From Pseudomonas defluvii (lineage in GTDB: Bacteria > Pseudomonadota > Gammaproteobacteria > Pseudomonadales > Pseudomonadaceae): 64,000 nt of DNA. The DNA lies in NCBI RefSeq assembly GCF_001695625.1, contig NZ_MBPN01000012.1, forward strand, positions 1-64,000. The letters run 5' to 3'. Positions 1,392-50,485 of this stretch are shown here, piece by piece. Made by a program: the position numbers and the translations under genes. Within the stretch, counting starts at the first letter, position 1, and the number at the start of each line of letters is the position of its first letter. The notes beneath the pieces are model-generated. The model had not been told where the DNA came from, did not search any database, and saw nothing but the letters and a program-made list of their open reading frames with translations.

Positions 1392-2759
1392 TTATGCGGC
1401 CTCCACGTGGTTCATCAGTTGGGCATGAATGGCCTGGGCTGCCAGCTTTCCGTGCTGCACGGCCTGGACGGTGAGGTCCTGCCCGAGTTGGGTACAGTCG
1501 CCACCGGCATACACGCCGGGAAGACTGGTGCGCATCTGTTCATCGACGCGAATGCGGTCGCCGTCGCGGGCCAGGAGTTGCCCGCTGGCGTCGTTCAGGG
1601 CGTGTTCATCGAAGGTCTGGCCGATGGCCTTGAAGATGGCATCGGCGGCCAGTTCGAAGGTTTCCCCGGTAGGCTGCAGGCGACCTTCGTCCAGGTGGGT
1701 ACGAGCAAAGCGCATGCCGCGCACCCGACCCTGTTCATCCAGCAGGACTTCGTCGGGTTGTGCCCAGGTCAGCAGACGCACCTGATTGGCCTTGGCGATG
1801 TCCTGTTCATGTGCCGTTGCGCCCATGTCCGGGTAGCCACGGCGGTACACCAGGTTGACCTCACGAGCACCCAGGCGGGCCATCTGCACGGCCATGTCGA
1901 TGGCGGTATTGCCGGCACCGAGCACGATGCAGCGCTCGGCCAGTGGCAGTTGGCTCAGGTCGTCGGCCTGGCGTAGTTCGCGGATGTAGTCGGTGGCGGC
2001 GAGCAACCCCGGCGCGTTTTCGTTGGCCAGGCCGAGTTGACGGCTGGCGTTCAGGCCAAGGCCAAGGAACACCGCATCGAACTGTTGGCGCAGATCCGAC
2101 AGGCTCAGGTTGTCGCCCAGTACCTGACCATGGCGTATTTCAATGCCGCCAATCTGCAGCACGAACGCCAGTTCGCGCTGGGCGAAGTCGTCGACCAGCT
2201 TGTACTTGGCGATCCCGTACTCGTTCAGCCCTCCGGCCTTGGGCCGTGCCTCGAAGATCACCACGTCGTGGCCATGCCAGGCCAGCCGATGGGCACAGGC
2301 CAACCCGGCCGGGCCGGCACCGACCACCGCGACGCGCTTGCCGGTAACGGGCGCGCGCTGGAAAGGGTGGGCGTCGAAGTCAGCGTGGTCCAGGGCGTAG
2401 CGCTGCAGCGCGCCGATCAGCACGGGCGCGCATTCCTGATGATGGTTGCGCACGCAGGCTTGCTCGCACAACACCTCAGTCGGGCAGACCCGTGCGCAGC
2501 TGCCACCGAGGATGTTGGCCGAGAGAATTTTCTCGGCCGCACCCTGGAGGTTGTCCTGATGAATGTTGCGTATGAAGGCGGGGATGTCGATTTCGCTGGG
2601 GCAGGCGTTGACGCACGGCGCATCGTAGCAGTACAGGCAGCGTGCGCTTTCCAGCGTAGCCTGACGGGCATTGAGCGGCGGCGCCAGGTCGCCGAAGCGC
2701 TCGGCCAGGGTGGCGTTATCGACGCCGGGTCGGGGGAGGTGATTCAAGGAGTCGATCAC
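1392..2759 (-). CDS. preT: NAD-dependent dihydropyrimidine dehydrogenase, subunit PreT
   Basis: This is the electron-input subunit, related to the small subunit of glutamate synthase, which passes electrons from NADH through FAD and Fe-S clusters to PreA. The N-terminus carries the cysteine-rich Fe-S region (CLYCYDAPCVNACP and GGSCARVCPTEVLC). It is followed by an FAD dinucleotide fold (VVGAGPAGLACA) and an NAD fold (VLGAGNTAIDMA). No ATG fits the start. GTG at 2759 has an AGAGG ribosome site 8 bases upstream and gives 455 residues. GTG at 2792 in the same frame would add 11 residues and is the alternative. Confidence 0.93.
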   Translation of the reverse strand: MIDSLNHLPRPGVDNATLAERFGDLAPPLNARQATLESARCLYCYDAPCVNACPSEIDIPAFIRNIHQDNLQGAAEKILSANILGGSCARVCPTEVLCEQACVRNHHQECAPVLIGALQRYALDHADFDAHPFQRAPVTGKRVAVVGAGPAGLACAHRLAWHGHDVVIFEARPKAGGLNEYGIAKYKLVDDFAQRELAFVLQIGGIEIRHGQVLGDNLSLSDLRQQFDAVFLGLGLNASRQLGLANENAPGLLAATDYIRELRQADDLSQLPLAERCIVLGAGNTAIDMAVQMARLGAREVNLVYRRGYPDMGATAHEQDIAKANQVRLLTWAQPDEVLLDEQGRVRGMRFARTHLDEGRLQPTGETFELAADAIFKAIGQTFDEHALNDASGQLLARDGDRIRVDEQMRTSLPGVYAGGDCTQLGQDLTVQAVQHGKLAAQAIHAQLMNHVEAA

Positions 2760-2825
2760 GGTGGTGGCCTCTGTTCTGATTGTTAGAGTCACTACGGCCT
2801 GTGGGGCAGCGTCACGGCCTTGCTT

Positions 2826-4397
<1,572 letters not shown>

Positions 4398-17809: not shown

Positions 17810-18475
17810 TTACCGCTTCAAATGTAAGTGTGCTGCCCTCATTGTTTTGTATGATCTTATGTAGTCGGTGTGTATATATCTAAACAGTCGCCATGAGTCT
17901 TGCCTTAATACCATTCTCCCGACGCCGTAGGCAGAAAGCCCTAAGTCAATAGCACCATAAGCAATATTGCCTTCAAGGACCCCGCCACCGATTAGTTTAG
18001 CGCCCTCCTGATAAACTTTCCTGACGGGCCCTTGGGTGTCAGCGCGATTTTCCAAGAGGTTACGACCGTTCTCATAGAGGTTATTTGATCCATGGGCCAT
18101 CATCGGGACACCCGCGAAAAGGCAAAGTGTTCCGGCTGATCCGTAGCAGATCCCGGCCCCTGTTGCTATCTGAAATGCCCCTGCGATTGCGCCAACGCCT
18201 TTCTGAGCGATCTCAAATGACTGGCTTAGCAGGCTGTCTTGTTCGTTTTTTAGGTCCTGTAGGCCTTGCTCAGGGCTTTTTTTGCCCTGCGAGACATCAT
18301 TAACAATGCTTTTGGCGTAATAAGCGATCTCGCGGTTGAATTGTAAACGCAGTGCGCCGTCTTTGATATGTCGAACACCTAAGGTGCTGGCTTGGTTTCC
18401 AAGCTTTCCAGCAGCGGCACTGACCATCCAGTAATCACAGCTACCTGGCATGCAGCTTTCACTTGCTGGCTTCAT
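17810..18475 (-). CDS. DUF4225-type protein, putative Hcp-delivered T6SS effector
   Basis: This 221-residue protein has a polar N-terminal half (residues 1-90) with a charged helical stretch (about 58-88). Two glycine/alanine-rich hydrophobic stretches follow at about 93-127 and 160-190, then a basic C-terminus (RLFRYIHTDYIRSYK). I recognise it as the DUF4225 type common in Pseudomonas; no enzymatic motif is visible. Its ATG overlaps the hcp stop codon as ATGA, so it is translated with Hcp, and a small membrane protein follows. I infer a secreted toxin that inserts into or targets the inner membrane. There is no signal peptide, consistent with type VI delivery. Confidence 0.65.
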   Translation of the reverse strand: MKPASESCMPGSCDYWMVSAAAGKLGNQASTLGVRHIKDGALRLQFNREIAYYAKSIVNDVSQGKKSPEQGLQDLKNEQDSLLSQSFEIAQKGVGAIAGAFQIATGAGICYGSAGTLCLFAGVPMMAHGSNNLYENGRNLLENRADTQGPVRKVYQEGAKLIGGGVLEGNIAYGAIDLGLSAYGVGRMVLRQDSWRLFRYIHTDYIRSYKTMRAAHLHLKR

Positions 18476-18957
18476 TCGTTATTTTCCCATGTGCTATATC
18501 CGCTAGTACCAGCAACGTGGTGAGTCCACGTGATGTCTCGGTAACGGATGGCTACATGTTCTTGCGGCTCGGCGTCACTCTGCAAAATAGCGTGAGGCAT
18601 TTCAAATGTCAGGTCAGCAATAATCCCGCCATTGATGGTTACAGAATAGAATTTCTCCTGCAATCCAAAAGAAGACACTCGATAAAAACTGATTGTGCAG
18701 CTTATTTCCTCTCTGGATGAGAGCGCTTGAGCGAGGAGCGGTGAAGCCTTGTCCACGTTTTTGGTGATAATGATTGGACTATGTGTAGGCTTATTAATAT
18801 TTCCGATGTTGACCATGTTGTGGGTGTAAGACAACACCATGATTTCGTCTGCATGCGCTGTCTGACACTTGTTGCCAATAGAGTCTTGGGTTGAACAACC
18901 CGCCGAAATCAGTCCTTGAGCCTTGCCGGTGATGGTCATGTAACCGTGGTTAGCCAT
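18472..18957 (-). CDS. hcp: Type VI secretion tube protein Hcp (orphan)
   Basis: This is the ring-forming tube protein of type VI secretion, also a carrier for effectors that sit in its pore. The 161-residue sequence begins MANHGYMTITGKAQGLISAG, followed by CSTQDSIGNKCQ and DEIMVLSYTHNM, which are hallmarks of the Hcp family found as orphan copies in Pseudomonas and enterobacteria. The ATG at 18957 has AAGGAG 8 bases upstream. No other type VI gene lies nearby, so it must work with an apparatus encoded elsewhere. It heads an AT-rich three-gene unit with the DUF4225 gene and a membrane gene. Confidence 0.88.
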   Translation of the reverse strand: MANHGYMTITGKAQGLISAGCSTQDSIGNKCQTAHADEIMVLSYTHNMVNIGNINKPTHSPIIITKNVDKASPLLAQALSSREEISCTISFYRVSSFGLQEKFYSVTINGGIIADLTFEMPHAILQSDAEPQEHVAIRYRDITWTHHVAGTSGYSTWENNE

Positions 18958-19032
18958 GCGTGACACTCCTTTAGTCCGCCGGTCATCCTATTACAAGGGT
19001 TTGAGCTGTGCTGTAGGGCATTTCTGAAAATC

Positions 19033-35140: not shown

Positions 35141-36451
35141 TTACGTGCGCTTGTCGAACACCCGGCAGGCCTTGCCCTCGGAGCGTTTAATCGAAAACAC
35201 GGGCTGCAGCACGATACGTGCACTGATGCCGATGTGGGTTTTGATGTGTCGGCTCAGATCGCCGCACAGGGTTTTCTGCTGATCCTCGCCAAGGTGCTGT
35301 TGGTCGGGCCTGAGCTCAACGTGTACATCGAGGCTGTCGAGATTGCCATTGCGATACAGATGCATCTCGTAGCACTCGGAAAGCTGTTTTATTTTCAGGA
35401 CCTGTTCCTCGATCTGGGTCGGGAACACGTTGACACCCCGGATGATCAGCATGTCGTCGCTACGTCCGGTGATCTTGTCGATGCGTCGCATCGGTCGGGC
35501 AGTGCCTGGCAACAGGCGAGTGAGGTCGCGGGTGCGATAGCGAATCATCGGCAGCGCCTCTTTGCTCAAGGAGGTGAACACCAGTTCGCCCAACTCACCA
35601 TCAGGGAGTACCGCCCCGGTCACCGGGTCGATGATCTCGGGGTAGAAATGGTCTTCCCAGACGGTAGGCCCGTCCTTGCTTTCCGCACACTCCATGGCGA
35701 CGCCCGGCCCCATGATTTCCGAAAGGCCATAAATGTCCAGGGCCGTGATGCCCAGGCGCGACTCAAGGGCGCTGCGTAGCTCAGGTGTCCAGGGCTCGGC
35801 GCCGAAAATACCCAGGCGCAGGGCCAGTTGGTGCGGGTCGATGCCTTGGCGCTCGATTTCATCGGCAATGTTCAGCATGTAGGACGGCGTGACCATGATG
35901 ATGTCGGGCTGGAAGTCACGGATCAGTTGCACCTGCTTCTCGGTCTGGCCGCCGGACATCGGAATCACTGTACAGCCGAGGCGCTCGGCACCGTAGTGGG
36001 CGCCAAGGCCGCCTGTGAACAGGCCATAGCCGTAAGACACGTGAACCTTGTCGCCTTTGCGCCCACCGGCGGCACGGATCGAGCGGGCGACCACGTTGGC
36101 CCAGGTGTCAATGTCGTTCTGGGTGTAGCCGACCACGGTCGGCTTGCCGGTGGTGCCGCTGGACGCATGCAGCCTGACGACATCGTGCATGGGCACAGCG
36201 AACATGCCGTAGGGGTAGTTGTCGCGCAGATCGGCCTTGTAGGTAAACGGGAGTTTTGCCAGGTCGTCGAGGCTGCGGATGTCGTCGGGGTGTACGCCCA
36301 CTTCGTCGAAGCGCTGACGGTACATGGGGACATTCTGGTAGGCGTGACCGAGGCTCCAGCGCAAGCGCTCCAGCTGATGCTGGCGCAGTTGGTCGATGCT
36401 GGCGGTTTCCATCGGGTCGAGCACGGCGGCATTGCTGATCTGCATGTTCAT
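35141..36451 (-). CDS. paaK: Phenylacetate-CoA ligase
   Basis: This AMP-forming ligase converts phenylacetate to phenylacetyl-CoA, the true pathway substrate and inducer. Of 436 residues, LHASSGTTGKPTVVGYTQND is the nucleotide-binding loop, IYGLSEIMGPG the second ATP motif, and YRTRDLTRLLPG and KITGRSDDMLIIRGVNVFP belong to the mobile C-terminal part. ATG at 36451 is preferred (36445 is also possible). It is the last gene of the paaFGHIJK operon, 94 bases after paaJ. Confidence 0.95.
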   Translation of the reverse strand: MNMQISNAAVLDPMETASIDQLRQHQLERLRWSLGHAYQNVPMYRQRFDEVGVHPDDIRSLDDLAKLPFTYKADLRDNYPYGMFAVPMHDVVRLHASSGTTGKPTVVGYTQNDIDTWANVVARSIRAAGGRKGDKVHVSYGYGLFTGGLGAHYGAERLGCTVIPMSGGQTEKQVQLIRDFQPDIIMVTPSYMLNIADEIERQGIDPHQLALRLGIFGAEPWTPELRSALESRLGITALDIYGLSEIMGPGVAMECAESKDGPTVWEDHFYPEIIDPVTGAVLPDGELGELVFTSLSKEALPMIRYRTRDLTRLLPGTARPMRRIDKITGRSDDMLIIRGVNVFPTQIEEQVLKIKQLSECYEMHLYRNGNLDSLDVHVELRPDQQHLGEDQQKTLCGDLSRHIKTHIGISARIVLQPVFSIKRSEGKACRVFDKRT

Positions 36452-36545
36452 GGGTTCACTCAAATTGTTTTTGTAAGGGCCGGGGCTACCGGCCTGAGTG
36501 CATGACGCCAAGAATACCTTGGGCGCCATGGCCTGGGGTGTACGT

Positions 36546-37757
36546 TCAGCCGTCAAGGCGCTCGATGATCAGCGCAATGCCCTGGCCGACACCGATGCAC
36601 ATGGTGCACAGGGCATAGCGCGCCTGACGCTCCTCCAACTCGATCAACGCGGTGGTCACCAGGCGGGCGCCGCTCATGCCCAGCGGGTGCCCCAGCGCGA
36701 TCGCACCACCATTGGGGTTGACCCGTGGATCATCGTCGGCGATGCCCAGTTCGCGCAGCACTGCCAACCCTTGTGCGGCAAAGGCTTCATTGAGCTCAAT
36801 GATATCCATGTCGGCCAGGCTCAGGCCCGACCGCTCCAGAACCTTGCGGGTAGCCGGTACCGGGCCAATGCCCATGATCCGTGGTTCAACCCCGGCGGTG
36901 GCCATCGCCACGACCCGGGCGCGAGCTTTAAGGCCATAGCGCTGGGCTTCGGCGCGGCTGGCCAGGAGCAGAGCGCAAGCGCCGTCGTTGACGCCGGAGG
37001 CATTGCCTGCGGTGACCGTGCCATTGGCGCGGAACGGGGTGCCGAGTTTCTGCAATTGTTCCAGCGTGGTTTCGGCACGCGGGTGCTCGTCGTGTTCGAC
37101 AACCTTGGGTGGGCCTTTGCGCTGGGCGATCTGGACGGCGACGATTTCCTTGGCCAGTCGGCCACGGGCCTGCGCCGCGGCGGTGCGCTGCTGGCTACGC
37201 AAGGCGAACGCGTCCTGATCGGCACGGGAAATGTTGAACTGTTCGGCGACGTTCTCTGCCGTTTCCGGCATGGAATCGATGCCGTACTGCTGTTGCATCA
37301 GCGGGTTGACGAAACGCCAGCCAATGGTGGTGTCGAACAGCTCCGCCTGGCGCGAAAAAGCCTGCTCGGCCTTGCCCATGACCAGTGGTGCACGGGACAT
37401 CGACTCGACGCCTCCGGCCAGCATCAATCCGGCTTCGCCACTGCGAATGGCCCGGGCCGCACTGCCGATGGCATCCAGGCCCGAGCCGCACAGGCGGTTC
37501 AGGGTGGTGCCGGGCACGCTCAGCGGCAAACCGGCCAACAGGGCAGACATGCGCGCGACGTTGCGATTGTCTTCGCCCGCCTGGTTGGCGCAGCCGTAGT
37601 ACACATCGTCAATGGCGCTCCAGTCCAGTTGTGGGTGGCGCTGCATCAGTGCACGCAGCGGAACCGCACCGAGGTCGTCAGCGCGCACGCCACTGAGCGC
37701 TCCGGCGTAGCGGCCAATGGGGGTGCGCAGGGCATCAATGATCAATGCGTCGTTCAT
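36546..37757 (-). CDS. paaJ: 3-oxoadipyl-CoA / 3-oxo-5,6-dehydrosuberyl-CoA thiolase
   Basis: This 403-residue thiolase cleaves the two beta-keto intermediates of phenylacetate breakdown, releasing acetyl-CoA. The catalytic Cys is in [15 protein letters not shown] near residue 92. [17 protein letters not shown] and [14 protein letters not shown] supply the His and second Cys. It overlaps the end of paaI by four bases (ATGA). The sequence is close to PcaF, but the context makes PaaJ the right name. Confidence 0.95.
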
Positions 37758-38194
37758 GCCGGGGTCTCCGTGTTCAGCACGCTGCCGCGCACTTTGTAGG
37801 ACTTGCCGTGAAACAGGGCGATCAGTTCGCCCTGCTGGTTTTCAATGCGTACGTCGTAGTTGCCGGTACGGCCGCTGCGGCTTTGTTCGGTGCACGCGGC
37901 CGTCAAGGTGTCGCCGAGTCGTGCCGGGGCGATGTAGTCGATGCTGCATCCAATCGCCACGGTGGCATCGTTGTAGCTGTTGCAGGCAAATGCGAAGGCC
38001 GAATCCGCCAGGGCGAACAGGTAACCGCCGTGGCAGGTGCCATGGCCCTGGAGCATGTCCTCGCGCACGCTCATGCCGACCCGCGCACTGCCAGGGCCGG
38101 TGGCGAGCAGGCGCATGCCCATGCCCTGGCTGGCCTGGTCGCGTTGGAACAGGGCCTGGGCGCAGCGGCTGGCCAGATCAAGACAGTCATTCAT
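37754..38194 (-). CDS. paaI: Hydroxyphenylacetyl-CoA thioesterase PaaI
   Basis: This is a 146-residue hotdog-fold thioesterase, thought to rescue CoA from dead-end ring-hydroxylated CoA esters. GHGTCHGGYLFALADSAFAFACN carries the catalytic Asp of the PaaI family. ATG at 38194 has AGGAG 9 bases upstream and overlaps the end of paaH by 8 bases; the earlier part of the frame is a shadow of paaH. Confidence 0.93.
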   Translation of the reverse strand: MNDCLDLASRCAQALFQRDQASQGMGMRLLATGPGSARVGMSVREDMLQGHGTCHGGYLFALADSAFAFACNSYNDATVAIGCSIDYIAPARLGDTLTAACTEQSRSGRTGNYDVRIENQQGELIALFHGKSYKVRGSVLNTETPA

Positions 38195-39704
38195 GGAACA
38201 GGGCTCCTTCGGCCAGTAGCCGACGCAGTTGCAAAGAAGGACGGTAACGTTCTTCGCCGTAAGCGGCCTGCAGGTTGCCCAGCACCTGGACAACCCGCTC
38301 GATACCGATGGCATCCGCCCAGGCCAGAGGGCCGCAGGGATAGTTGACCCCCGCGCACATGGCCAGATCCAGGTCCTGAGCGCTGGCAACGCCTTGCAAC
38401 AGGGCGTCAGCTGCTTCATTGGCCAGCATGGCGACGGTACGCAGTACGCACAGGCCCGGGCTGTCCCGCAGGGCGCTGACGGCGATACCGGCACGGTTGA
38501 GCAGTGCGACGACCTGGTCGCGGGCCTGCGTAGGGGTGTCTGCCGCAGTGCTGATGGCCAACCGAGAGGCTTGTTGGTAATCAAGGGCGAGGTCGAGCAG
38601 GACCAGGTTGTCCAGACCCTCCTCACGGGCCCGTTGGCTGGCCAATCGACCATCACTCAGCGCCACGGTGGCATCGCCGACCCGCAGCACGCCGCGGCCT
38701 GCTCGGCGTACCACGCTGATGCCGCAGGCTGCCAGTCGCGTGACCAGCGGTTCGAGCAGGCCGCTTTCGCCTTCCACGATCAATTGCTCGACCACGGCGG
38801 TGCTGTGCAGGTTGCTCGGCTGGGGGCGCACAGCACCTTCACGGTAGTCATAAAAGCCAAGTCCACGCTTGCGACCCAAGTGGCCAGCGTCGACCAACTC
38901 TTTCTGGATCAATGAAGGCTGAAAGCGCATGTCCTGGTAGTAGGCGTCAAACACTGAGCAGGTGACGGCATAGTTGACGTCGTGTCCGATCAGGTCTGTC
39001 AGCTCGAAGGCGCCCATGCGAAAACCACCGGCTTCGCGCAACAGTGCGTCGAGGCTGGCGCAATCGGCCACACCTTCCTGCAGCAGGCGCAGGCTTTCGG
39101 CATAGAACGGGCGAGCCACGCGGTTGACGATAAATCCCGGCGTTGAGCGCGCCAGCACCGGTGTTTTGCCCCAGGCACGGGCGGTGGCAAGGATGCAGGC
39201 TGCAACCTCTGGATCGGTGGCCAGGCCGCTGATCACTTCAACCAGTGCCATTAACGGTGCCGGGTTGAAAAAGTGCATGCCGACAACCTGGGCCGGGCGT
39301 TGAAGGCCTGCCGCCAGGCGGGTGATGGACAGTGACGAGGTGTTGCTGGCCAGGATGCAGTCACTGCGGCACAGGCCTTCCAGTTCGCTGAACAGTGCCT
39401 GTTTGACCTCCAGGTTCTCGACAATGGCCTCGATCACCAGCCCTGCATCGGCCAGAGCCTCAAGGCTGTCGGCTGGCTGCAGCCGGGCGATGCAATCGGT
39501 CTGAGCGCTGGCCGCCAGCTTGCCGCTGGCAACGCGTTTGGCCAGCTGTTGGTCGATGTTGGCGATCGCCTGCGCGGCCGCGCCCGGACGATTGTCGTAC
39601 AGCCGTACCGGGTGCCCGGCCTGGGCGGCCACTTGTGCGATGCCGGCCCCCATGGCGCCTGCGCCGATCACTGCGATCAGGGTGTGCGGGTTCAAGGTGG
39701 GCAT
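38187..39704 (-). CDS. paaH: 3-hydroxyacyl-CoA dehydrogenase PaaH
   Basis: This 505-residue enzyme oxidises 3-hydroxyadipyl-CoA to 3-oxoadipyl-CoA with NAD+. The Rossmann motif VIGAGAMGAGIAQVAA is near residue 10, and the catalytic His region is VGMHFFNPAPLMALVEVI. PGFIVNRVARPFYAE starts the helical domain, which is duplicated in this long form. ATG at 39704 has AGGGG 9 bases upstream and lies 2 bases past the paaG stop; the GTG at 39713 is less likely. Confidence 0.95.
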   Translation of the reverse strand: MPTLNPHTLIAVIGAGAMGAGIAQVAAQAGHPVRLYDNRPGAAAQAIANIDQQLAKRVASGKLAASAQTDCIARLQPADSLEALADAGLVIEAIVENLEVKQALFSELEGLCRSDCILASNTSSLSITRLAAGLQRPAQVVGMHFFNPAPLMALVEVISGLATDPEVAACILATARAWGKTPVLARSTPGFIVNRVARPFYAESLRLLQEGVADCASLDALLREAGGFRMGAFELTDLIGHDVNYAVTCSVFDAYYQDMRFQPSLIQKELVDAGHLGRKRGLGFYDYREGAVRPQPSNLHSTAVVEQLIVEGESGLLEPLVTRLAACGISVVRRAGRGVLRVGDATVALSDGRLASQRAREEGLDNLVLLDLALDYQQASRLAISTAADTPTQARDQVVALLNRAGIAVSALRDSPGLCVLRTVAMLANEAADALLQGVASAQDLDLAMCAGVNYPCGPLAWADAIGIERVVQVLGNLQAAYGEERYRPSLQLRRLLAEGALFHE

Positions 39705-39706
39705 GT

Positions 39707-40498
39707 TCAGCACCCCTTGAACACTGGGGTGCGCTTGGCCATGAAGGCACTGACCCCTTCACGGTAGTCTTCGCTACGCCCGGCCAGGCGCTGGAGGTCG
39801 CGCTCGAGGGTCAGTTGCTGCTCGAAGCTGTTGTCCAGGCTGGCGTGCAGGCTGCGTTTGATCAGGGCCAGGCCATAGGTCGGCTGAGTCGCCAGGTGTC
39901 GGGCCAATTTCAGTGCTTCATCACGCAAGTCGGCATCATCGACACAGCGGTAGATCAAGCCCCACTCCACGGCTTGCTCGGCGCTCAAGCGATCACCCAA
40001 CAGGGCCAGGGCCTTGGCCCGAGCCATGCCGACCAATCGGGGCAGGGCCCAAGTGCCGGCAGAGTCGGGAATCAGGCCAATCTTGCAGAATGCCTGGATG
40101 AAGCTCGCGGAGCGGGCGGCCAGCACCAGGTCGCAGGCCAGCGGAATGTTGGCGCCGGCACCGGCTGCCACGCCGTTGACCGCACAGATAACCGGCATTG
40201 GCAGCTCACGCAGCGTGCGGATCAACGGGTTGTAGAAACGCTCGATGGATTCGCCCAGGTCTGGCACTGCTGCACCTGGCGCGACATTGCGGTCGCCCAG
40301 GTCCTGACCTGCGCAGAAGCCACGCCCCTCGGCAGTGAGTAACAGTACCCGCGCCTCGCCACTCTGACGCACAGTCTTGAGTGCCTGGCGAACCTCTTCA
40401 TGCATCTGGGTATTGAAACTGTTCAGTTGCTCGGGGCGATTGAGGCTGAGGCGTGCAACGCCGTCTTCAATGGAAAACAGAATGTGTTCAAACGTCAT
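39707..40498 (-). CDS. paaG: 1,2-epoxyphenylacetyl-CoA isomerase PaaG
   Basis: This 263-residue crotonase-fold isomerase converts the ring epoxide to oxepin-CoA. [20 protein letters not shown] and [14 protein letters not shown] form the CoA and oxyanion region, and [22 protein letters not shown] the second oxyanion segment. The acidic residue in [19 protein letters not shown] is the family's catalytic Asp. ATG at 40498 (MTFEHILFS) is the usual start. Confidence 0.94.
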
Positions 40499-40551
40499 GG
40501 TGGCTGCCTTTGGTTGCAGGTCTGTCAATGTCGCGAAACGGACGCAGGGGC

Positions 40552-41322
40552 TTACTGGCCGTTGAAGCGGGCTGGGCGTTTTTCCTGGAAGGCGCGAATA
40601 CCCTCGTTTCGGTCGGCGGTGCCGGCGAGCAAGGTAAAGGCGTGGCGTTCAAAGCGCAGGCCACTGGCCAGGTCGAGGTCCTGCGCCTTCAACAGCGCTT
40701 CCTTGGCCAGGCGTACCGCCAGCGGCGCCTTGTTGGCGATGGTGGTAGCGATCTGCAGGGCGCGTTCGATCGTCAGCTCTGGTGGTGTGATTTCACTGAC
40801 CAACCCGGCCTCCAGTGCACGGCGCGCACTGATGGGCTCGCCGCTCAGAACCATCTGCATGGCAAGCGATTTGCCAACTGCGCGCAGTAACCGTTGGGTG
40901 CCGCCTGCGCCCGGCATGATCCCCAGATTGATTTCGGGTTGACCGAACTGGGCATCTTCACCCGCGATCAAGATGTCCGCGTGCATGGCCAGCTCACAGC
41001 CGCCGCCCAGGGCATAGCCGTTGACTGCAGCGATCAAGGGCTTGGCGAAGCCGGTGATGCGCTGCCAGTGGGCCTGGCGGGGGTCGTTGAGCATGCCGAC
41101 GAGGTCGCGCTCAGCCATTTCATTGAGGTCGGCGCCTGCCGCAAACGCCTTGCGGCTACCGGTCAGCACCACAGCGCGGATGTTGTCGTCGTGGCTGCAG
41201 CGTTCCAGTTCGTTCGCCAGTTCGGCGAGCAGTTCGGTGCTGAGTGCGTTCAGCGCCTGGGGGCGCTGCAGGGTGATCAGGCACACCGCCTGGTGGGATT
41301 GCACGGCAAGTGTTTGCGGCAT
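40552..41322 (-). CDS. paaF: 2,3-dehydroadipyl-CoA hydratase PaaF
   Basis: This 256-residue crotonase-fold hydratase acts on 2,3-dehydroadipyl-CoA. Conserved pieces are [35 protein letters not shown] and [20 protein letters not shown]. The two glutamates of hydratases appear in [10 protein letters not shown] and [23 protein letters not shown] at 41322 (MPQTLAVQS) is chosen; upstream codons are promoter sequence. It is the first gene of the paaFGHIJK operon. Confidence 0.94.
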
Positions 41323-41399
41323 GGCAAGGACTCTCGCAAGGCGGACGCGGCCTTTGGCCGGACTGGTTTTTTGGACGGGCCCCAGGGCCGTTTTTCCAG

Positions 41400-41457
41400 A
41401 GTATAGCCACAACGTGATACGCAAATACAATACTAAAATAAAATAGCGTGTCCTATA
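41400..41457 (-). promoter_or_regulatory. paaF promoter region with PaaX-like box
   Basis: TATACT (minus strand, 41400-41405) is a good -10, with TTGTAT 19 bases upstream as a poor -35. GTGATAC at 41414-41420 and CGTGTC-TATA at 41447-41457 reproduce the paaA arrangement, with the same 33-base offset between the two elements. Confidence 0.55.
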
Positions 41458-41544
41458 TTGACGTGTCTCTTGCTCGCGCCGCGTACTATTTCTGCCGATT
41501 TTTGTTGTGGAATTAGTGATTTCTGGATGTTTGGCGCTGTTGCA

Positions 41545-41555
41545 ATGTGATACAA
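41545..41555 (+). promoter_or_regulatory. PaaX-like box upstream of paaY-paaX
   Basis: ATGTGATACAA is a third copy of the GTGATAC core, 56 bases before the paaY start, where it could mediate autoregulation of paaYX. The rest of 41323-41610 is AT-rich promoter DNA without a gene. Confidence 0.5.
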
Positions 41556-41610
41556 GAAAGACGATTTTGCAGCGAACAAAATTCCAGCTTTAGACGCGAG
41601 GAGCGTGCCT

Positions 41611-42210
41611 ATGACGTGTTACAGCCTCGATGAACTGACGCCAGTGGTTGATCCAACGGCTTACGTTCACCCATCCGCCGTGTTGATCGGTGATGTGATC
41701 ATCGGCCCGCGTTGCTATGTCGGCCCACTGGCCAGCTTGCGCGGTGACTTCGGTCGGATCGTGCTGGAGGAGGGCGCGAACGTTCAGGACACCTGTGTGA
41801 TGCATGGTTTTCCGGACAGCGACACGGTAGTTGAACGCAATGGCCACGTCGGTCACGGCGCGGTACTGCACGGATGCCGGGTCGGTGCAGATGCCTTGAT
41901 TGGTATGAATGCAGTAGTGATGGATAACGCGCATATCGCCGCGCGTTCATTCGTTTCGGCCGGTGCGCTGGTCAAGGCTGGTTTCAGTTGCCCAGAGCAA
42001 TCGTTGGTGCTGGGTTCACCTGCGCAGGTCAAGCGCCGGCTCAGCGATGAGGAAGTGGCCTGGAAGCAGGCCGGTACGCGCGAGTATCAAGTGTTGGCGC
42101 AACGCTGCATGGCCTCGCTGCAGGAATGCACGCCACTGAGCGTCGTCGAGGCCGACCGCCGCCGTATCCATGACAGCGGGTTGCGCCCCAAGTCGTCGGG
42201 CAGCGCCTGA
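41611..42210 (+). CDS. paaY: PaaY, gamma-carbonic-anhydrase-fold thioesterase
   Basis: This is a 199-residue left-handed beta-helix protein of hexapeptide repeats (for example AVLIGDVIIGPRCYVGPLAS and GHVGHGAVLHGCRVGADALIG) with metal-binding histidines. PaaY hydrolyses CoA esters of toxic shunt products and works with PaaI as a safety valve. ATG at 41611 has GAGGAG 8 bases upstream; the GTG at 41605 is not needed. It is divergent from paaF and followed by paaX. Confidence 0.93.
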   Translation: MTCYSLDELTPVVDPTAYVHPSAVLIGDVIIGPRCYVGPLASLRGDFGRIVLEEGANVQDTCVMHGFPDSDTVVERNGHVGHGAVLHGCRVGADALIGMNAVVMDNAHIAARSFVSAGALVKAGFSCPEQSLVLGSPAQVKRRLSDEEVAWKQAGTREYQVLAQRCMASLQECTPLSVVEADRRRIHDSGLRPKSSGSA

Positions 42211-42287
42211 ACAGCGCCCCGGCTGTGCCCTGAATGGTCATTGCTGACTGCCAGGGGTATATTTCTTATTTTTCGACCGGAACGCCC

Positions 42288-43250
42288 ATGTCGTCCCTAG
42301 CTCCGCTCACTAAACTGATCGACCGTTTCCAGCAGCAAACGCCCATTCGCGCCAGTTCGTTGATCATCACGCTCTACGGTGATGCCATTGAGCCACATGG
42401 CGGTACCGTGTGGCTGGGAAGCCTGATCCAGCTGCTCGAACCCGTTGGGATCAACGAGCGCTTGATTCGCACATCCATTTTTCGCTTGACCAAGGAGAAC
42501 TGGCTAACGGCTGAAAAAGTCGGGCGGCGCAGCTATTACAGCTTGACCGGCACGGGACGGCGTCGTTTCGACAAGGCCTTCAAGCGGGTCTACGCCAGCA
42601 CTTTACCGGCCTGGGACGGCTCGTGGTGCCTGGCAATGTTGACTCAACTGCCGGCCGACAAGCGCAAGCAGGTGCGCGAAGAGTTGGAGTGGCAAGGCTT
42701 TGGTGCGATTTCTCCGGTGGTGCTGGCGTGTCCACGTTGCGACCGGGCCGATGTGAACGCCACGCTTCTGGACCTCGGCGCACAGGAAGACACACTGCTG
42801 TTCGAGACCACTGCACAGGATGTCATGGCTTCAAAAGCACTGCGCATGCAGGTTCGCGAGAGTTGGAACATCGATGAGTTGGCTGCGCATTACAGCGAGT
42901 TCATCCAGTTGTTCCGGCCACTGTGGCAAAGCCTGCGCGAGCAGGAGCAACTCGACCCACAGGAATGCTTCCTGGCGCGCATCCTGCTGATTCATGAGTA
43001 CCGCAAGCTGCTGCTGCGTGACCCGCAGTTGCCTGACGAATTGCTCCCTGGCGATTGGGAAGGGCGTGCAGCGCGACAGTTGTGCCGGAATATCTATCGG
43101 TTGATCTATGCGGCAGCCGAGCAGTGGCTGGAGTCGGCGATGGAGACCGCCGACGGGCCGTTGCCGGATGCCAGCGCAGGGTTCTACAAGCGCTTTGGCG
43201 GCTTGCCGGTCGGCGCCGGGCCTGGCAGTGAAGCCGATACGGCGGACTAG
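42288..43250 (+). CDS. paaX: PaaX transcriptional repressor of phenylacetate catabolism
   Basis: This 320-residue repressor has an N-terminal winged helix (RASSLIITLYGDAIEPHGGTVW, then RLIRTSIFRLTKENWL) and the long PaaX C-terminal domain (HEYRKLLLRDPQLPDELLPGDWEG). It releases DNA on binding phenylacetyl-CoA. ATG at 42288 (MSSLAPLTKL) is the family start; the codons from 42234 are intergenic. It ends 11 bases from the convergent DUF4434 gene. Confidence 0.95.
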   Translation: MSSLAPLTKLIDRFQQQTPIRASSLIITLYGDAIEPHGGTVWLGSLIQLLEPVGINERLIRTSIFRLTKENWLTAEKVGRRSYYSLTGTGRRRFDKAFKRVYASTLPAWDGSWCLAMLTQLPADKRKQVREELEWQGFGAISPVVLACPRCDRADVNATLLDLGAQEDTLLFETTAQDVMASKALRMQVRESWNIDELAAHYSEFIQLFRPLWQSLREQEQLDPQECFLARILLIHEYRKLLLRDPQLPDELLPGDWEGRAARQLCRNIYRLIYAAAEQWLESAMETADGPLPDASAGFYKRFGGLPVGAGPGSEADTAD

Positions 43251-43261
43251 CAGAAGCTGGC

Positions 43262-44113
43262 TCAGGTACCGTCTGGCGCGGTCAGGAGGTGCTTGGCCCA
43301 CGGCCGGTAATGCAATTCAAACACGGCCTGCGGATGGCAGCCTGTGGTGGTTTGCGGTGGAGCGGGGGTGGCCTTGAACGGTTGACCTTCCGCGCTGGTT
43401 TGGCGAAACGCTTCACGGATGATGCCAATCTCGCAGGCCAGCGCTGCCGCGTACTGCTGGCGGACGAACTCGGGCAAGCGCTCGGTCCCCGCGCCGTCCT
43501 GCCACCATACCGTCAGGCCGAGACGGGCCAATGCCTCCAGCCACTGTGCTTGTCCGTTCGGTGACAGCTTGCCAGTGCTGAAAACACTAAGGTGCATGGG
43601 GCCACCTGCTTCGCGCAGGAAGGCTTGCAGCAGCGTGTGCAGCGCCTCACGGCGGTCGGCCTGTTGGAAGTGCAGGTCATCCAGCTCCATGGGCAGGTAC
43701 CAACCGCTGACCGGAAGCGCCCAGGTGTCCTTTAGCCGTTGCTGCTGAGCCAGCGATTGGCCCAGTTGTGCTTTCCAGTAGGCGATCAGGCCCGCGCCGT
43801 CCAGTTCGTCGATACGCCTGTAGTAGGCGTCGTCCATGTGCAGCCCGAGTACCAATTGCAGGCCCTGTTCATGGGCCAGGCGCAGGCTGTTGGCGAGCCA
43901 ACCCTGGGCGCCGCCAAAGTCCTCGCTGCCGTAGCGGCTCCATTGCACGATCAGGGTCTGGACGCCCTGGTTTGCGGTTTCGCGCCAGAGGGTGCGCCAC
44001 TGTGCCGGGCTCAGCGCCGCATCGCGGCTGAGCGGCTGGTAAAACAGACGTTCGTCAGCATTGACCAGAACACTCAGTATCAGCAGTAGCACGCCCAGTA
44101 CGTATCGCCCCAT
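43262..44113 (-). CDS. DUF4434-type periplasmic protein of the glycan locus
   Basis: This 283-residue protein has a signal peptide (GRYVLGVLLLILSVLVNADE) and a probable TIM-barrel glycosidase-like fold (TLIVQWSRYGSEDFGGAQGW, LQLVLGLHMDDAYYRR, GWYLPMELDDLHFQQ). Its ATG overlaps the nfrA stop as TGATG, so it belongs to the same operon. By position it is the counterpart of ybcH beside nfrAB in E. coli. A role in trimming or binding the exported glycan is an inference. Confidence 0.7.
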   Translation of the reverse strand: MGRYVLGVLLLILSVLVNADERLFYQPLSRDAALSPAQWRTLWRETANQGVQTLIVQWSRYGSEDFGGAQGWLANSLRLAHEQGLQLVLGLHMDDAYYRRIDELDGAGLIAYWKAQLGQSLAQQQRLKDTWALPVSGWYLPMELDDLHFQQADRREALHTLLQAFLREAGGPMHLSVFSTGKLSPNGQAQWLEALARLGLTVWWQDGAGTERLPEFVRQQYAAALACEIGIIREAFRQTSAEGQPFKATPAPPQTTTGCHPQAVFELHYRPWAKHLLTAPDGT

Positions 44114-46974
44114 CAGAAGTTCAACTCCACGCCCAGGAGCACGCCGTTGGCATGCTCATATAGATTGCCGCCCAGCGCCTGCTGGTATTCGGTGCGAACT
44201 GTCAGATTGCTGCGATAGGCGTTGTAGCGGTCGTCATCGAACCACCATTGCCAGCGCAGGCCGAGGCCGGTGCGCAGGTCCTGACGCCAGTCGTTGCCGG
44301 GATCCTGGCTGGAAAACGCCAGAAAACCATAGGGCATCAGTGTTTGCGGGCGGGTCACTGGCAGTTTCCAGGTATGCCCCTGCTGGAAGCGTGATGTCCA
44401 CTGGTGTTCGCCAGCATGCGTCCACCAGGCGGCGTCCAGGTAGAGAAACCGTTCACTCCAGTGGTTCTCCTCGACACGCCAGTCATTGCGGTAGTCGCCT
44501 TGATCGAGGAACGAAGCAGTTGCGCGTAGCAGCAGGTCATTGCTGCTCTGGGCATTACCGCGCAGGTCGACATAGTTGTCAGCGACCTTGCCGGGGCTGA
44601 GCAGTTGGCCGAGGCTGAGACCGCTGTAGTGCTGATCGTCGATCTGGCGTTGGTTGTACAACTCGGCGTACAGGTTCAGGTTGGTGGTGCCGAATGGTTT
44701 GTAGCGCAGGCCAAGCCCGGTCCCCATGCTTTGGGCATAGTTGCTGCGGTCCTGGCCGCCGAACAGCACTCGGCCATACACCGACAGTGTGCTGCCGTTG
44801 CGGCTCGGCTAATCACCCAGGGCATGGTCCCACAGGGCCAACTGAACGTTCTGCGAGGCGGCACGGCGTTGTGGGTTGCTGCTGCGCAGGGTGTCGTTGG
44901 TCGAGACGCCGGCCGGCGACCAGGTGCTGGCCAAACTGATGCTGTCGCGTTGCGAAAGGCTTTGATGGGCGCGGCGTTGCCGATAAACACGGGCGGCGAG
45001 GCGGATGTCATCGGTACCGTCGTCCACCATGTTCTGTTCCAGGTCGATGATACGGCGCAGTTCCTGGCGGGCTGCCGCGCTGTTTTCAACCTCGTCGTAG
45101 CGCCAGGCCAGGGTTTCGCCAATGCGGTAGTCTTCCGGAAAGTCGTGGCTGGCCTGTATCAGGTAGGGCAGCGATTGCCTACGCAGTTGTGGTGTATCGG
45201 CGGCGGCCAGGCGCACGCCGTAGTCGGCGCGATAGCGCGGGTTTTCGGGGGCGAGCCGTGCCGCTTCTGCCAGCCATTCATGGCTCTGCTGCGGCTCGTT
45301 GGCGTGCTGTGCGGTCACGGAGGCTGCATAGTAGTGATCGGCGCGCGGCTGATGTCGCAGCGCTTCGCGTTGCAGGGCCATGGCTTCGGCGAAAGCGCCA
45401 CGGCGTTGCGCAATGGCCGCGCCCAATGCCCAGTCGTCGGCGCTGCTGTGTGGCGCAGCACGCCAATGCACCCAGGCCTCTTGAGTGTGGTTGCTGTTCA
45501 AGGCGCTACGGGCGGCGGTAAGTCGGGCATTGGCCGTCCACTGCTCGGAGGGCAGTTGCTGCCAGATCCTGTAGGCGGCTTCGGCGTCGCCCGCCGCGTC
45601 CAGTGCATAGGCCAATGGCACTTGGCTGGCCGGGTCGCCACGTCGTACGGCCGCCTGGTAATAGGCGACGGCCACTCCGGGGCGTTCTGGCATCGCGCAG
45701 CGGCCCAGCGCACGCAACTCACCGATTTCATGAGGTATTGGCGGGGTCGCTGCGCGAACGACTTCGCAGTGACCACTCTGTGCCAAGCGTGCCAGCAGTT
45801 GCTCGCGGCTGGCGCTGTCGAGTTGCGGGATCAGGGTTTTCGCACGGCCTGCATCCAGTGGCCTGTCGACGCGACTGTACAATCCACCTAGCCGTTGCAG
45901 TAACACCGGTGGCCAGGGACCTTGGCGACGGTCGTAGGCCAGTTCGAGCAAGTGTTGTGCACGGTCATCCTGATGGTGTGTGAGTTGTAGGTAGGTGACC
46001 TGATCCAGCGCCTCCAGGCTACCGTTGAGGTGATAAAGGCGCTCCCAGGCATCAATGGCTTCACCTGGGTGATCGAGAGGATGCGCCATGGCTTCGACCG
46101 GCAGGCGTTGAGCCAAGGCCCTGCGGTCGCTTTGCTGGACGAGCTCCCTCAGTTGCTGACGCCGTTGCGGTTGCTCAAGCTCCTGCTTGGGTAATGCTTG
46201 CAGCCAGCGCAGTGCCAGGTTCTTTTGATCCAGCGCGATGGCTCGGTCGATCATCGCCAGGCGCATTTGGCGTGCCGCTTCGGCAGACGGCGGCTTGGTC
46301 AACAGTGCGCTGAGTGCTGTTTCGTCCAGGCGCTGGACGTAAGCATTGGCCAGGCGCCGCCACGGTTCTTCAGGCAACGGCCCGCGCGCGGCCAAAGGCG
46401 CGAGCTGTGCTATGGTTTGCTCACTGTTGTGCAGTTGCTCGGCCCAGTTGGCGCGCGCCATGCGCAGCAGACGATCATCACCTTTGCCAGGCAGTTGGTT
46501 GAGCCATTCCAATGCCCGTTGGGCGCCCCCGAATTTGGCCAGGCTCAGGCTATAGGCTTGCCATAAGCGTATGCGTTGCGTGAGGTCACTGTCCGCGATC
46601 CACCGCTCGACCTGGCTTTTACCGGGCGGGTCTTGCTCAATCCAGGTCAGGCGCAGTTGCAGCAGGGCGTCGGCGTGATCTGCGCTGGCGCCAAAGGCTT
46701 CGGCCACCTGTACAGCCTCGCGGTAGCGTCGTTGCCGGGTAAGCGCCTCGATCAGCAGGGCGCGTGCATCATCGTTGTTGGGTACTTTCTCCAGCAGGTG
46801 CCGGGTCAACCGCTCGACCTCTTGCCAGTTGTTGTTGCGCGCCTCGCGGTAGCTGCGGTCCATATAGGGAAAGCTGCGGAATCGCTCAAAACTACTGAGC
46901 GGCGCGGCGAGCGTCTGTGAACTGATGCACGCTACCAGCAGGCTGGTGAAAATCAGCAGTGGACGTCGTTTCAT
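44113..46974 (-). pseudogene. nfrA: nfrA-like outer-membrane exporter, interrupted by an in-frame amber codon
   Basis: This gene would encode a 953-residue protein: a signal peptide (LLIFTSLLVACISSQTLAAP), a long TPR-type helical region (residues about 40-640), and a C-terminal NfrA-type beta-barrel domain. A single TAG at 44809-44811 stops it after residue 721 (ALWDHALGD). The same frame then continues without a gap through the barrel (SVYGRVLFGGQDRSNYAQ) to the stop at 44113. In E. coli NfrA exports a glycan and is the phage N4 receptor. A CAG to TAG change would explain the break; a sequencing error is also possible. The start overlaps nfrB as ATGA. Confidence 0.85.
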
Positions 46975-49145
46975 GCCACTTCCTGTGCCATCTGATAGGC
47001 GATCCGCAGCTCGGCGGCCTGCTCGGCCAGCGCTTCCTGAAGAACCTCGGCGGTAATCAAACCGCGCGCAACCAGGTGCTCGCCGATCGACATCTGCTCC
47101 GGGTTGTAGTCAATGAGTACCTGATTGAACAGGCTGCTTGGCAAAATACCACGCACCTGCAGCAGTGCGCCAAGCATGACCTGGTGATGGCTGACCCGCT
47201 CAAGGAGCGCAGCGTCGTCCTGATGCTTGGCCAGCACTGCGAGCATTTGCCGCGTGTCCTCCGGTTGCCAGGGGCTGGGGTAGTGATAACTCAATCCCAG
47301 GGTGACTCGCCCTTGGGGGGCCAGTTGGCAGCGTACGGGACGTTTCAACTGGCGACTGATCACACCCAGCGCCACCTGGCTGACAGGCCCCTCGCTGGCC
47401 AGAACCAGCGTCGGGCCGTCTTCAGCGACCGGCAGCACCGCATAGAGAATAGCCAGCCGACGAGGCAAGAGGGTAATCAGCGCCGGGGGAATGTTGAACG
47501 GGTTGAGCAGTGCCCACGCCATGTCAAATTGCTCGGCAAGTGCCTGGACCAACTGCTCGCTGTCGATCAGTCCTCGCAACAGCAGCTCACGCCCCAGGCG
47601 CCGGCGTACCGGGCTGGTCAGGGCATCCTGCAGTTGTGCTTCGCTGATCAGCCCCTTGGCGACCAAACGCTGCCCCAACGGTTCGCGCATGGGGGTGGTC
47701 AGCGCTGGAAACTCATGAGTGGTCTTGTCCCAGGCGACCCGTCGTGAGTCGCCCATCTCCAAGACTTGGCGCAGGGCTCGCAGGTTGGCGAAAAAATTGA
47801 CGAAATTGCTCCACATCATTCGGGGTGCCGAAAGCAGGCCCTCAATGATGCCGTAGTAACGGGTGACGAAATAACCGCGCTGAAGCAAACGGTTGATCAA
47901 CAGCAGGCCGTTGAGCCAGAGCAGCGTCGACAACAGGGCGCTGTCGGACAGGATGGACGGGAAGCGCCAGGCGTCGGGCGCGATCACCGTCACCAGCCAC
48001 ATGGCCAGCAACACCAGGAACAACAGGTTAACCAGAAAGCTCAGCAGGTAGGCAAACAGCCCACGGCGATCGCGCCAGAGGAAGTAGTTGAGTGCCGCTA
48101 TGCGGCTCCAGCCCAGGTTGCTGGTGCCCTGAAAGACAATCCCCACGATCCAGCGCGACTTCTGGCGGATCGCGTGTCGCCAGTCACGCGGAAAGTGTTC
48201 GCGCACGCAGATTACCTGGGCAAATTCACGGCTCATGCCCCAATGCCACTCGCGCTTGAGCGCAAGTTGCGGGTCGCTTATCGAATAACGGGCAAAGATG
48301 CACTTCATGCCTTTGCGCTTGAGCCTGAAGCCGATGTCGTAGTCTTCGGTCAGGCTCTGTACATCGAATGCGATACCGTCGCCGTCTTCAAGTAGTGCCG
48401 TGATAGCCCGGCGGCTGAAGCAGGTACCGACACCGGCGCTGGGAACCTGGCCGCTGAGCGCTTCGCGGACAATGACATCCTTGCCATGGTTTTCGGCGAA
48501 CTCATCGACGTAATGACCTGCCGTGAACCCGTGCCATTGGGGGGCGAAGGGGTAGACCGGTATCTGAATCATGTCCTTGTCGGGCAGCAAGTAGTTGAAC
48601 AGCCGCAACTCCATCGGCGAGATGACATCCTCGGCGTCATGCAGGATGTAACCGGCGAACTCGATTCTCGCATCGCGCTGGAAGCGCAGGATCGCGTCGA
48701 TGATGTTGTTCAGGCAGTCGGCCTTGCTGGTGGGGCCGGGGCGGGCACAGATGACTTTGTGAACATTGGGATAATGTAGGCACACCGCGTCGACATCGGC
48801 CTGGGTTTGCGGGTCGTTGGGGTAGGTGCCGACAAAGATCTGGTAGTTCTCGTAATCGAGTGTGGAGGCTGCCAAGCGGGCCATCTCGCCAACGACGCCC
48901 ACTTCGTGCCAGGCAGGCACCATGATTGCCAGCGGTTTTTCCGGTACCTCGAACAGGCGGCGTTCGTCGGCGCGCGCATATTTGTCATAGATGCGAAAGC
49001 GTCGTATGAGTTTGCGCAACCAATAGATCAGGTCGATGAACAGATCGTCGAGCCCGAGCAGGAACATCAGGCTGGCCAGTACGATGGCCAGCAGCTTGAG
49101 GCCGAACAGCACGTAGGTCAGGGCGTCGACCAGGCCCAGGCTCAT
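46971..49145 (-). CDS. nfrB: NfrB-like membrane glycosyltransferase with C-terminal MshEN-type domain
   Basis: This 724-residue inner-membrane enzyme polymerises a sugar nucleotide into a glycan. A GT2 domain contains VPAWHEVGVVGEMARLAAST, the metal motif HDAEDVISPMELRLFNY, EDYDIGFRLKRKGMK, and RQKSRWIVGIVFQ. Membrane helices lie at about 1-35 and 360-430. The C-terminal 230 residues hold repeats such as LGRELLLRGLIDSEQLVQAL and IGEHLVARGLITAEVLQEAL, the MshEN type known to bind c-di-GMP. It overlaps wecB upstream and nfrA downstream by four bases each. Confidence 0.9.
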   Translation of the reverse strand: MSLGLVDALTYVLFGLKLLAIVLASLMFLLGLDDLFIDLIYWLRKLIRRFRIYDKYARADERRLFEVPEKPLAIMVPAWHEVGVVGEMARLAASTLDYENYQIFVGTYPNDPQTQADVDAVCLHYPNVHKVICARPGPTSKADCLNNIIDAILRFQRDARIEFAGYILHDAEDVISPMELRLFNYLLPDKDMIQIPVYPFAPQWHGFTAGHYVDEFAENHGKDVIVREALSGQVPSAGVGTCFSRRAITALLEDGDGIAFDVQSLTEDYDIGFRLKRKGMKCIFARYSISDPQLALKREWHWGMSREFAQVICVREHFPRDWRHAIRQKSRWIVGIVFQGTSNLGWSRIAALNYFLWRDRRGLFAYLLSFLVNLLFLVLLAMWLVTVIAPDAWRFPSILSDSALLSTLLWLNGLLLINRLLQRGYFVTRYYGIIEGLLSAPRMMWSNFVNFFANLRALRQVLEMGDSRRVAWDKTTHEFPALTTPMREPLGQRLVAKGLISEAQLQDALTSPVRRRLGRELLLRGLIDSEQLVQALAEQFDMAWALLNPFNIPPALITLLPRRLAILYAVLPVAEDGPTLVLASEGPVSQVALGVISRQLKRPVRCQLAPQGRVTLGLSYHYPSPWQPEDTRQMLAVLAKHQDDAALLERVSHHQVMLGALLQVRGILPSSLFNQVLIDYNPEQMSIGEHLVARGLITAEVLQEALAEQAAELRIAYQMAQEVA

Positions 49146-50296
49146 GAGATCTCTCGCCCGTTGGCGTTGTCCTCGAGCCAGCGGCTCAGCCGTTCGGCAA
49201 TGCGCTCGCTGGCATGTCCGTCACCATAAGGGCTGAACACCCGGCTCATGCGCTGGTAGTGGTCAGGCTCTTCAAGCAGGCGGCTGGTTTCCTTGACGAT
49301 CCGTTCGGTCTGGGTGCCCACCAGCAACACCGTGCCACCCTCCAGTACCGAGGGCCGCTCCGTTACCTTGCGCAGCACCAGCAGTGGCTTGCCCAGTGCC
49401 GGTGCTTCTTCCTGGATTCCTCCGGAATCGCTCAGGATCAAGTAGGCGCGGTCCATTAGCCAGACAAAGTGTCGATAGTCCTGAGGGGCGACCAGCAGGA
49501 TGTTCGGCTGATGTGAAAGAACCGAGTAGACGGCCTTCTGGACGTGCGGATTAAGATGCACCGGGTAGACGAACTGAACCTCGGGGTAACGCAGGGCCAG
49601 CTCGGCGATGGCCAGGCAGATACGCTCAAAGCCATGCCCGAAGTTTTCCCGGCGATGGCCAGTGATCAGCACCATGCGCTGGTCATCGCGCAAGGCTGAC
49701 AGTGGCGAGGCGGTTGCCGGTTTCCAGTGGCTGCTCTTGAGGTGTTCGCGCATCCACAGCAAGGCATCGATGACCGTATTGCCGGTCACTTCGATCTGCT
49801 CCAGCACGACCCCTTCGTGCAGCAGGTTATCGCGGGCCTTCTTGGTCGGGGGGAAATGCAGGTCGGCGATGATCGTGGTCATACGGCGATTGGCTTCCTC
49901 GGGCCAGGGCGCCTTGAGGTTTCCGGTGCGCAGGCCGGCCTCGACATGGGCAATGGGGATATGGCGGTTGAAGGCACAGAGCGCAGCAATGAAACTGGTG
50001 GTGGTATCACCGTGAACAAGGACGATATCCGGTTTTACCTGCTCGTAGTAAAGGTCGAGCTTACCCAGCAACTGTTGGGACAATTCGTTGAGACTCTGGT
50101 TGTCGGTCATGACCTGAAGGTCGATGTCGACGGTCAGGCAGAAGTCCTTCAGAACGTGATTGAGCATTTCCCGGTGTTGCCCGCTGGAGCAGATGTTCAG
50201 CGCGATGTCGGGCCATTGGCGCAATACCCTCGCCAGCGGCGCCATCTTGATCGCTTCGGGGCGTGTGCCGAAAACCATCATGACTTTATAGGGCAT
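49142..50296 (-). CDS. UDP-N-acetylglucosamine 2-epimerase (non-hydrolysing)
   Basis: This 384-residue WecB-type epimerase interconverts UDP-GlcNAc and UDP-ManNAc. Motifs are VFGTRPEAIKMAPL, SGQHREM, GDTTTSF, HVEAGLRTG, TGHRREN and SDSGGIQEEAP. ATG at 50296 (MPYKVMMVFG) is preferred over the earlier in-frame ATG at 50311. It is the first gene of a four-gene overlapping operon and supplies UDP-ManNAc to the NfrB-like enzyme. CGCTTGG (50397) and CCAAGCG (50418) form a 7-bp inverted repeat in the leader. Confidence 0.93.
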   Translation of the reverse strand: MPYKVMMVFGTRPEAIKMAPLARVLRQWPDIALNICSSGQHREMLNHVLKDFCLTVDIDLQVMTDNQSLNELSQQLLGKLDLYYEQVKPDIVLVHGDTTTSFIAALCAFNRHIPIAHVEAGLRTGNLKAPWPEEANRRMTTIIADLHFPPTKKARDNLLHEGVVLEQIEVTGNTVIDALLWMREHLKSSHWKPATASPLSALRDDQRMVLITGHRRENFGHGFERICLAIAELALRYPEVQFVYPVHLNPHVQKAVYSVLSHQPNILLVAPQDYRHFVWLMDRAYLILSDSGGIQEEAPALGKPLLVLRKVTERPSVLEGGTVLLVGTQTERIVKETSRLLEEPDHYQRMSRVFSPYGDGHASERIAERLSRWLEDNANGREIS

Positions 50297-50485
50297 GTTC
50301 GTGCTCCTCATAGCCTCCTTGCGCGTGCTAGAAGTTGTACGGTAATCATGTCCTGTAAACGCTAGATACAAGCAGTTGCCCGAAAGCTTGTCCAATCGCT
50401 TGGTCGGACGCTTGAGGCCAAGCGGGGCGGCAAGCCTAGCACAAGTCGTTGACGTGAGGGGGAGACCTGAGCTAGTTTCCTCCTC

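Follow-up and report, generated by a model that had tools for sequence, protein, structure and literature searches.

The stretch of DNA analysed here, called the window and 64,000 nucleotides long, carries on its minus strand a row of four genes with overlapping ends, namely wecB, nfrB, nfrA and a DUF4434 gene of the ybcH type. The first of these, wecB (49142..50395), encodes a whole non-hydrolysing UDP-GlcNAc 2-epimerase, which matched TIGR00236 with 465.2 bits (cut-off 210.15) and whose true start may lie inside the annotated ORF. nfrB (46971..49145) encodes a whole c-di-GMP-activated glycosyltransferase with an MshEN domain (PF05157) and the TED and QxxRW motifs, and scored 1222.9 bits with NF008411, for which the cut-off is 1170. 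The DUF4434 gene (43262..44113), also whole, matched NF007404 with 345.6 bits (cut-off 344). Thus, two neighbours belonging to the Nfr system, NfrB with its MshEN domain and the DUF4434 gene, were both present and above cut-off. wecB and nfrB share 4 bases, nfrB and nfrA likewise share 4, and nfrA and the DUF4434 gene overlap by 1 base (TGATG), the start of DUF4434 lying on the nfrA terminator. An earlier note on this DNA had described the genes around nfrA as whole. This was confirmed for wecB, nfrB and DUF4434, the frames of which are open and pass the NCBIfam cut-offs, and the pathway looks whole apart from a stop codon inside nfrA. A phenylacetate catabolic-like gene set with a PaaX regulator adjoins the nfr genes at 35141-43250, its genes other than that for PaaX being named by eye. 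Elsewhere in the window (17810-18966, minus strand), an Hcp/TssD gene (TIGR03344, PF05638) shares 4 bases with a 221-aa ORF carrying a DUF4225 domain (PF13988); the pair resembles an orphan hcp and a partner linked to it.

Translation of the minus strand from 46974 to 44113 gave 953 codons followed by the terminal TGA, with a single internal stop, the TAG at codon 722 (44809..44811), where relatives have Glu. The single amber codon reported in the earlier note was therefore present as described, and so was the otherwise open frame, although the length of 954 codons given there includes the TGA terminator. The part 5' of the stop (44812..46974, minus strand, 721 codons) comprises a signal-peptide-like start (judged by eye), the TPR part and the first strand, or the first two, of the barrel, as placed by a match to NF007302 up to profile position 785 and by models of an orthologue. 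The part 3' of the stop (44113..44808, minus strand, 231 codons plus TGA) holds most of the barrel and matched PF13283 (NfrA_C) with 100.9 bits, the cut-off being 25. With NF007302 (PRK09782, phage receptor), the best stretch was 362-785 for the upstream half (651.8 bits, E value 1.9e-195) and 788-990 for the downstream half (299.1 bits, E value 6.5e-89). These separately scored halves lie below the curated full-length cut-off of 1223, under which nfrA may score even without the stop. The codon-usage score was 0.27 for the 60 codons before the TAG and 0.37 for the 60 after it, where the median for long ORFs of the window is 0.26. These scores, together with the match on adjoining profile positions, bear out the view that both sides of the TAG are coding. 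The frame is thus not continuous from signal peptide to barrel end and, because of the TAG at codon 722, we class the gene as an nfrA nonsense allele and not as one encoding a working NfrA. The whole draft genome (5.65 Mb) gave one match to the nfrA stretch, so the gene is present in single copy. Among the papers listed by literature searches, none reports the present nfrA amber allele in its title or abstract.

To place the stop in the protein, the intact orthologue of P. laurentiana was modelled together with its relatives. In the model of the full protein (mean pLDDT 76.0, pTM 0.45), helices extend as far as residue 674, a single strand follows at 680-686, and the next long one is at 727. 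TPR and other helical-repeat matches filled the best 50 listed in the whole-protein fold search, and the barrel was therefore predicted and searched alone. The barrel-only model, of middling confidence (pLDDT 71.1, pTM 0.70), had 12 strands starting from 678, of which 678-686 and 708-720 precede the TAG position, the latter with low confidence. On these orthologue models the protein is a TPR solenoid followed by an outer-membrane beta-barrel. The helical part matched TPR structures (MamA 3vty_A, Z 18.3, rmsd 4.1, 170 aligned) and the C-terminal part matched outer-membrane barrels (BrkA 3qq2_C and EspP 2qom_A, Z 12.2). A further match was to 4y25, a polysaccharide outer-membrane secretin which we take to be PgaA (Z 10.7, rmsd 4.7, 199 aligned). 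The NfrA barrel shares the fold class of 4y25 but, since BrkA and EspP score as high or higher, the likeness to PgaA is one of fold class only. A sequence search of solved structures returned two matches, the best with an E value of 0.097, and no clear relative. The earlier note had let the helical part run to ALWDHALGD, a boundary that by the models lies about 45 residues too late, the last helix ending at 674 and the barrel beginning near 678. As the barrel begins before the TAG, the predicted product retains the TPR part but no more than two of the strands. For the NfrA of E. coli, 16 strands are given in an excerpt of PMC8669472, as compared to the 12 modelled here.

We determined the codon at the TAG position in relatives. 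It specified Glu in all 80 named loci (GAA in 42, GAG in 38) and was a stop in none, so the sister comparison proposed in the earlier note did yield a sense codon, though not the CAG (Gln) given there as one possibility. A second set consisted of 29 of the 30 genus loci returned, the 30th being the window itself, and its genomes are partly shared with those of the named loci; again all 29 had a Glu codon (GAG 18, GAA 11). In an alignment of 50 of the named-locus proteins, E722 was invariant. The closest relative found, P. laurentiana (L070), aligned without gaps over 953 residues at 85.6%. The earlier note had also allowed that relatives might normally encode two separate proteins at this point. 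Since a sense codon is present in 80/80 named loci, that is not their normal state, and nfrA is whole in most related species.

Division of nfrA into two proteins was considered as well. In alginate export, AlgK and AlgE are a separate TPR protein and barrel, and nfrA could by now have been divided in the same manner, with the TPR protein in the periplasm and the barrel as a protein of its own. Both parts do keep open frames, and a GTG start is available 9 codons past the TAG (44781). The downstream piece, however, has no signal peptide by eye and misses the first barrel strands, and such an arrangement at this place was found in 0/80 named loci, which makes this reading extremely improbable.

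The barrel part showed no decay. Compared with P. laurentiana, dN/dS was 0.13 before the TAG and 0.13 after it. Among 191 sites after the TAG that are conserved in four outgroups, the window had 5 private amino-acid changes and P. laurentiana 8; among 492 such sites before the TAG, the respective numbers were 17 and 11, a slight surplus in the window that weighs against a recent nonsense allele. Equal dN/dS on both sides means that the stop is recent or else an error, and the proposal of a recent change agrees with this constraint. The absence of decay is compatible with a recent mutation and equally with an error or with read-through; it speaks against an old pseudogene.

An error is the main alternative to a real nonsense allele. 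The TAG would then have arisen in base calling or in assembly, or be a variant in part of the sequenced culture, and the strain's nfrA would be whole. The genome is a draft of 369 contigs, the TAG differs from the codon of relatives by one base, and nothing downstream of it has decayed, all of which is in favour of an error. On the other hand, nfrA contains no indel and no N, and the alignment with P. laurentiana is gapless. Assemblies seldom contain isolated substitution errors if their depth is good, and this would count against an error here to the extent that the draft has such depth. We also scanned the window for in-frame stops between coding-like stretches, which flagged 12 places, the nfrA TAG among them. 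The ORF map of the window showed no second gene recognisably split by a single stop; of the flagged stops, the one in nfrA was tested individually. Family matches of nine ORFs, drawn from two stretches where the map was untidy, likewise revealed no split gene. On balance we regard an error as unlikely.

Read-through of the TAG, by a suppressor tRNA or by leaky termination, at a level sufficient for a working NfrA would also account for the equal constraint on its two sides. The earlier note had named amber suppression among its alternatives, and a search for a suppressor tRNA did not favour it. The tRNA family gave 52 matches in the genome, of which ARAGORN assigned 50, and no CUA anticodon was among these 50. 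Of the two left unassigned, one is a partial match at the contig 18 edge and the other a weak match close to the end of contig 54. This set of tRNAs is incomplete, for example in that the Ile GAT anticodon was not assigned in the draft, so a suppressor gene could be missing from it. Three other ORFs of the window map end in TAG, which argues against a general reassignment of this codon, and relatives have no stop here, so the site is not a conserved read-through site. Read-through therefore appears very improbable.

Taken together, the locus probably carries a recent amber nonsense allele of nfrA, which encodes the outer-membrane exporter of a WecB-NfrB-NfrA-YbcH surface-glycan pathway in this strain, a Pseudomonas by its named relatives. 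The loss of NfrA function and the recency of the stop are what we infer from the codon and from the constraint around it. Translation would halt at codon 722, by which point the first strand or two of the C-terminal barrel would have been made, leaving a truncated NfrA that would keep the TPR part and lack most barrel strands and the C-terminal end. With these missing, no outer-membrane pore would be formed. The downstream piece appears, by eye, to have no export signal of its own. As NfrB and WecB are whole, synthesis of a ManNAc-type polymer like that proposed for E. coli could still begin, but the polymer could not be exported. Judging from E. coli, NfrA would also be absent from the surface as a docking site for phages. 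Translation of the DUF4434 gene would probably be lowered too, given its overlap with the nfrA terminator. Glycan export and surface NfrA would be expected to be lost, in line with the earlier note. If the codon is real, the strain would be a natural nfrA-null with the remaining pathway whole, useful for probing the role of the Nfr glycan in Pseudomonas and for asking whether Pseudomonas phages with an N4-type tail protein need that glycan. If the codon is an error, the annotation is unfit as evidence of gene loss.

Broken nfr genes were also found elsewhere in the genus. Short nfrA frames occurred in 5/80 named loci (L076, L111, L113, L132 and L135). Two of these, L132 and L135, were dropped as nfrA breaks owing to runs of N at the breaks, which left 3/80. 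L076 and L111 contain nfrB remnants and lack the 5' part of nfrA, and L076 contains 188 N starting at 1115. In these loci, from P. donghuensis and P. wadenswilerensis (L076 2672-4693, L111 2855-4693), only nfrB remnants (residues 536-656 and 623-656) stand before the 5'-truncated nfrA. The two losses look alike and perhaps represent one shared event. L113 has one frame change, which is possibly a sequencing error, as the sequence there includes a short C run.

A scan of 398 genomes of the genus, with full nfrB taken as a match over at least 713/724 residues at no less than 61% identity, found full nfrB in 78 of them, G000 included, and in each of the 78 its frame was open over at least 723 codons. 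The barrel-holding frame was short in three of the 78: G000, G411, which has two frame changes and no N, and G183, which is broken at the same place as L135 and with an N run. Outside the 78, G007 was broken at the same place as L076, G248 had nfrB cut after residue 143 and no nfrA match, and G387, which is 77% complete, gave partial matches only. In G007 and G248 the losses extend into nfrB. At the G248 locus (L201, G248:C121:84500-89500, positions 2367-3615), 38 bases separate the end of the nfrB match, at residue 143, from the beginning of the match to the DUF4434 protein, at residue 17. Most of nfrB, the whole of nfrA and the beginning of the DUF4434 gene thus appear to have been deleted. 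DUF4434 lesions were seen in L092 (two frames) and L111 (shortened). nfrA lesions were not in excess over those of the DUF4434 gene (5 vs 2, length-corrected, p = 0.65), the 5 counting the dropped L132 and L135. Such numbers are too small for selection to be demonstrable from them.

The earlier note had suggested phage escape as the cause of the stop. This cause, which overlaps the nonsense-allele reading, would have phages that use NfrA or its glycan select the mutation. In E. coli, phage N4 requires NfrA and NfrB according to portions of PMC8669469; there and in portions of PMC8669472, N4 failed to lyse cells lacking NfrB or NfrA, and YbcH was dispensable. As the 160-kDa protein of N4 we took gp65, the tail sheath, given its position behind gp64 and the way its matches are named. 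Matches to gp65 were present in 118 of the 50,697 phage records searched, with a coverage of at least 80% in 36 cases, and 13 of the 118 are named Pseudomonas. Among the 60 matches listed, Pseudomonas phage inbricus has the full tail protein at 54.0% identity, and PspYZU01 has 73% of it at 34.9%. With such homologues in Pseudomonas phages, phages of this genus able to use NfrA plausibly exist, as far as sequence likeness can indicate. Against a phage cause, the primary receptor of the N4-like P. aeruginosa phage Ab09 is LPS (excerpt of PMC6467409), and laboratory E. coli lineages bear nfr lesions for which no phage cause is shown in the sections consulted of PMC8669472 and PMC5809092. Selection of this stop by phages is thus possible but unlikely. 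Still more doubtful is the broader proposal that Nfr in Pseudomonas is a phage target repeatedly switched off by independent lesions (the amber in this strain, and in other species deletions and frame changes), such that the alleles record selection by phages with N4-type tails. A record of Escherichia phage Halfdan_Juelich_variant (PP954860), with Pseudomonas taiwanensis as the written host, contains a piece resembling part of the N4 tail protein. The nfrA frame of P. taiwanensis (L074) is open. A literature search for the Halfdan phage with P. taiwanensis returned nothing.

A stop codon in nfrA is an ordinary kind of mutation, and the amber allele, as a probable nonsense allele of this gene, is another instance of an event already known from E. 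coli. The Nfr system of that species is similar to the one described here in the family match on both halves of NfrA, in PF13283 and in the TPR part. The gene order nfrB-nfrA-DUF4434, with nfrB and nfrA overlapping, is the same here as that given for E. coli in part of PMC8669469. In passages of PMC8669469 and PMC8669472, NfrB of E. coli is c-di-GMP-controlled and thought to make a ManNAc polymer from the WecB product, and export of this ManNAc-based polymer by NfrA is proposed but unproven. The present locus differs from the E. coli system in that wecB lies in the same gene row and an amber codon interrupts nfrA within the barrel. Among the naturally occurring nfr lesions of E. coli are insertion elements, deletions and premature stops in nfrB or dgcJ; all B strains carry nfrB or dgcJ lesions, for which the authors invoke a laboratory fitness cost (portions of PMC8669472). 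In those cases the same pathway loses one part, but through another gene and in another genus, whereas here it is nfrA that carries a substitution. The W289* allele, which arose in the hypermutable Ara+3 lineage of an E. coli evolution experiment and was lost again in the recombinant studied, is described in an excerpt of PMC5809092. It is also an nfrA nonsense mutation, but lies further upstream than the amber codon described here and belongs to a hypermutable laboratory lineage.
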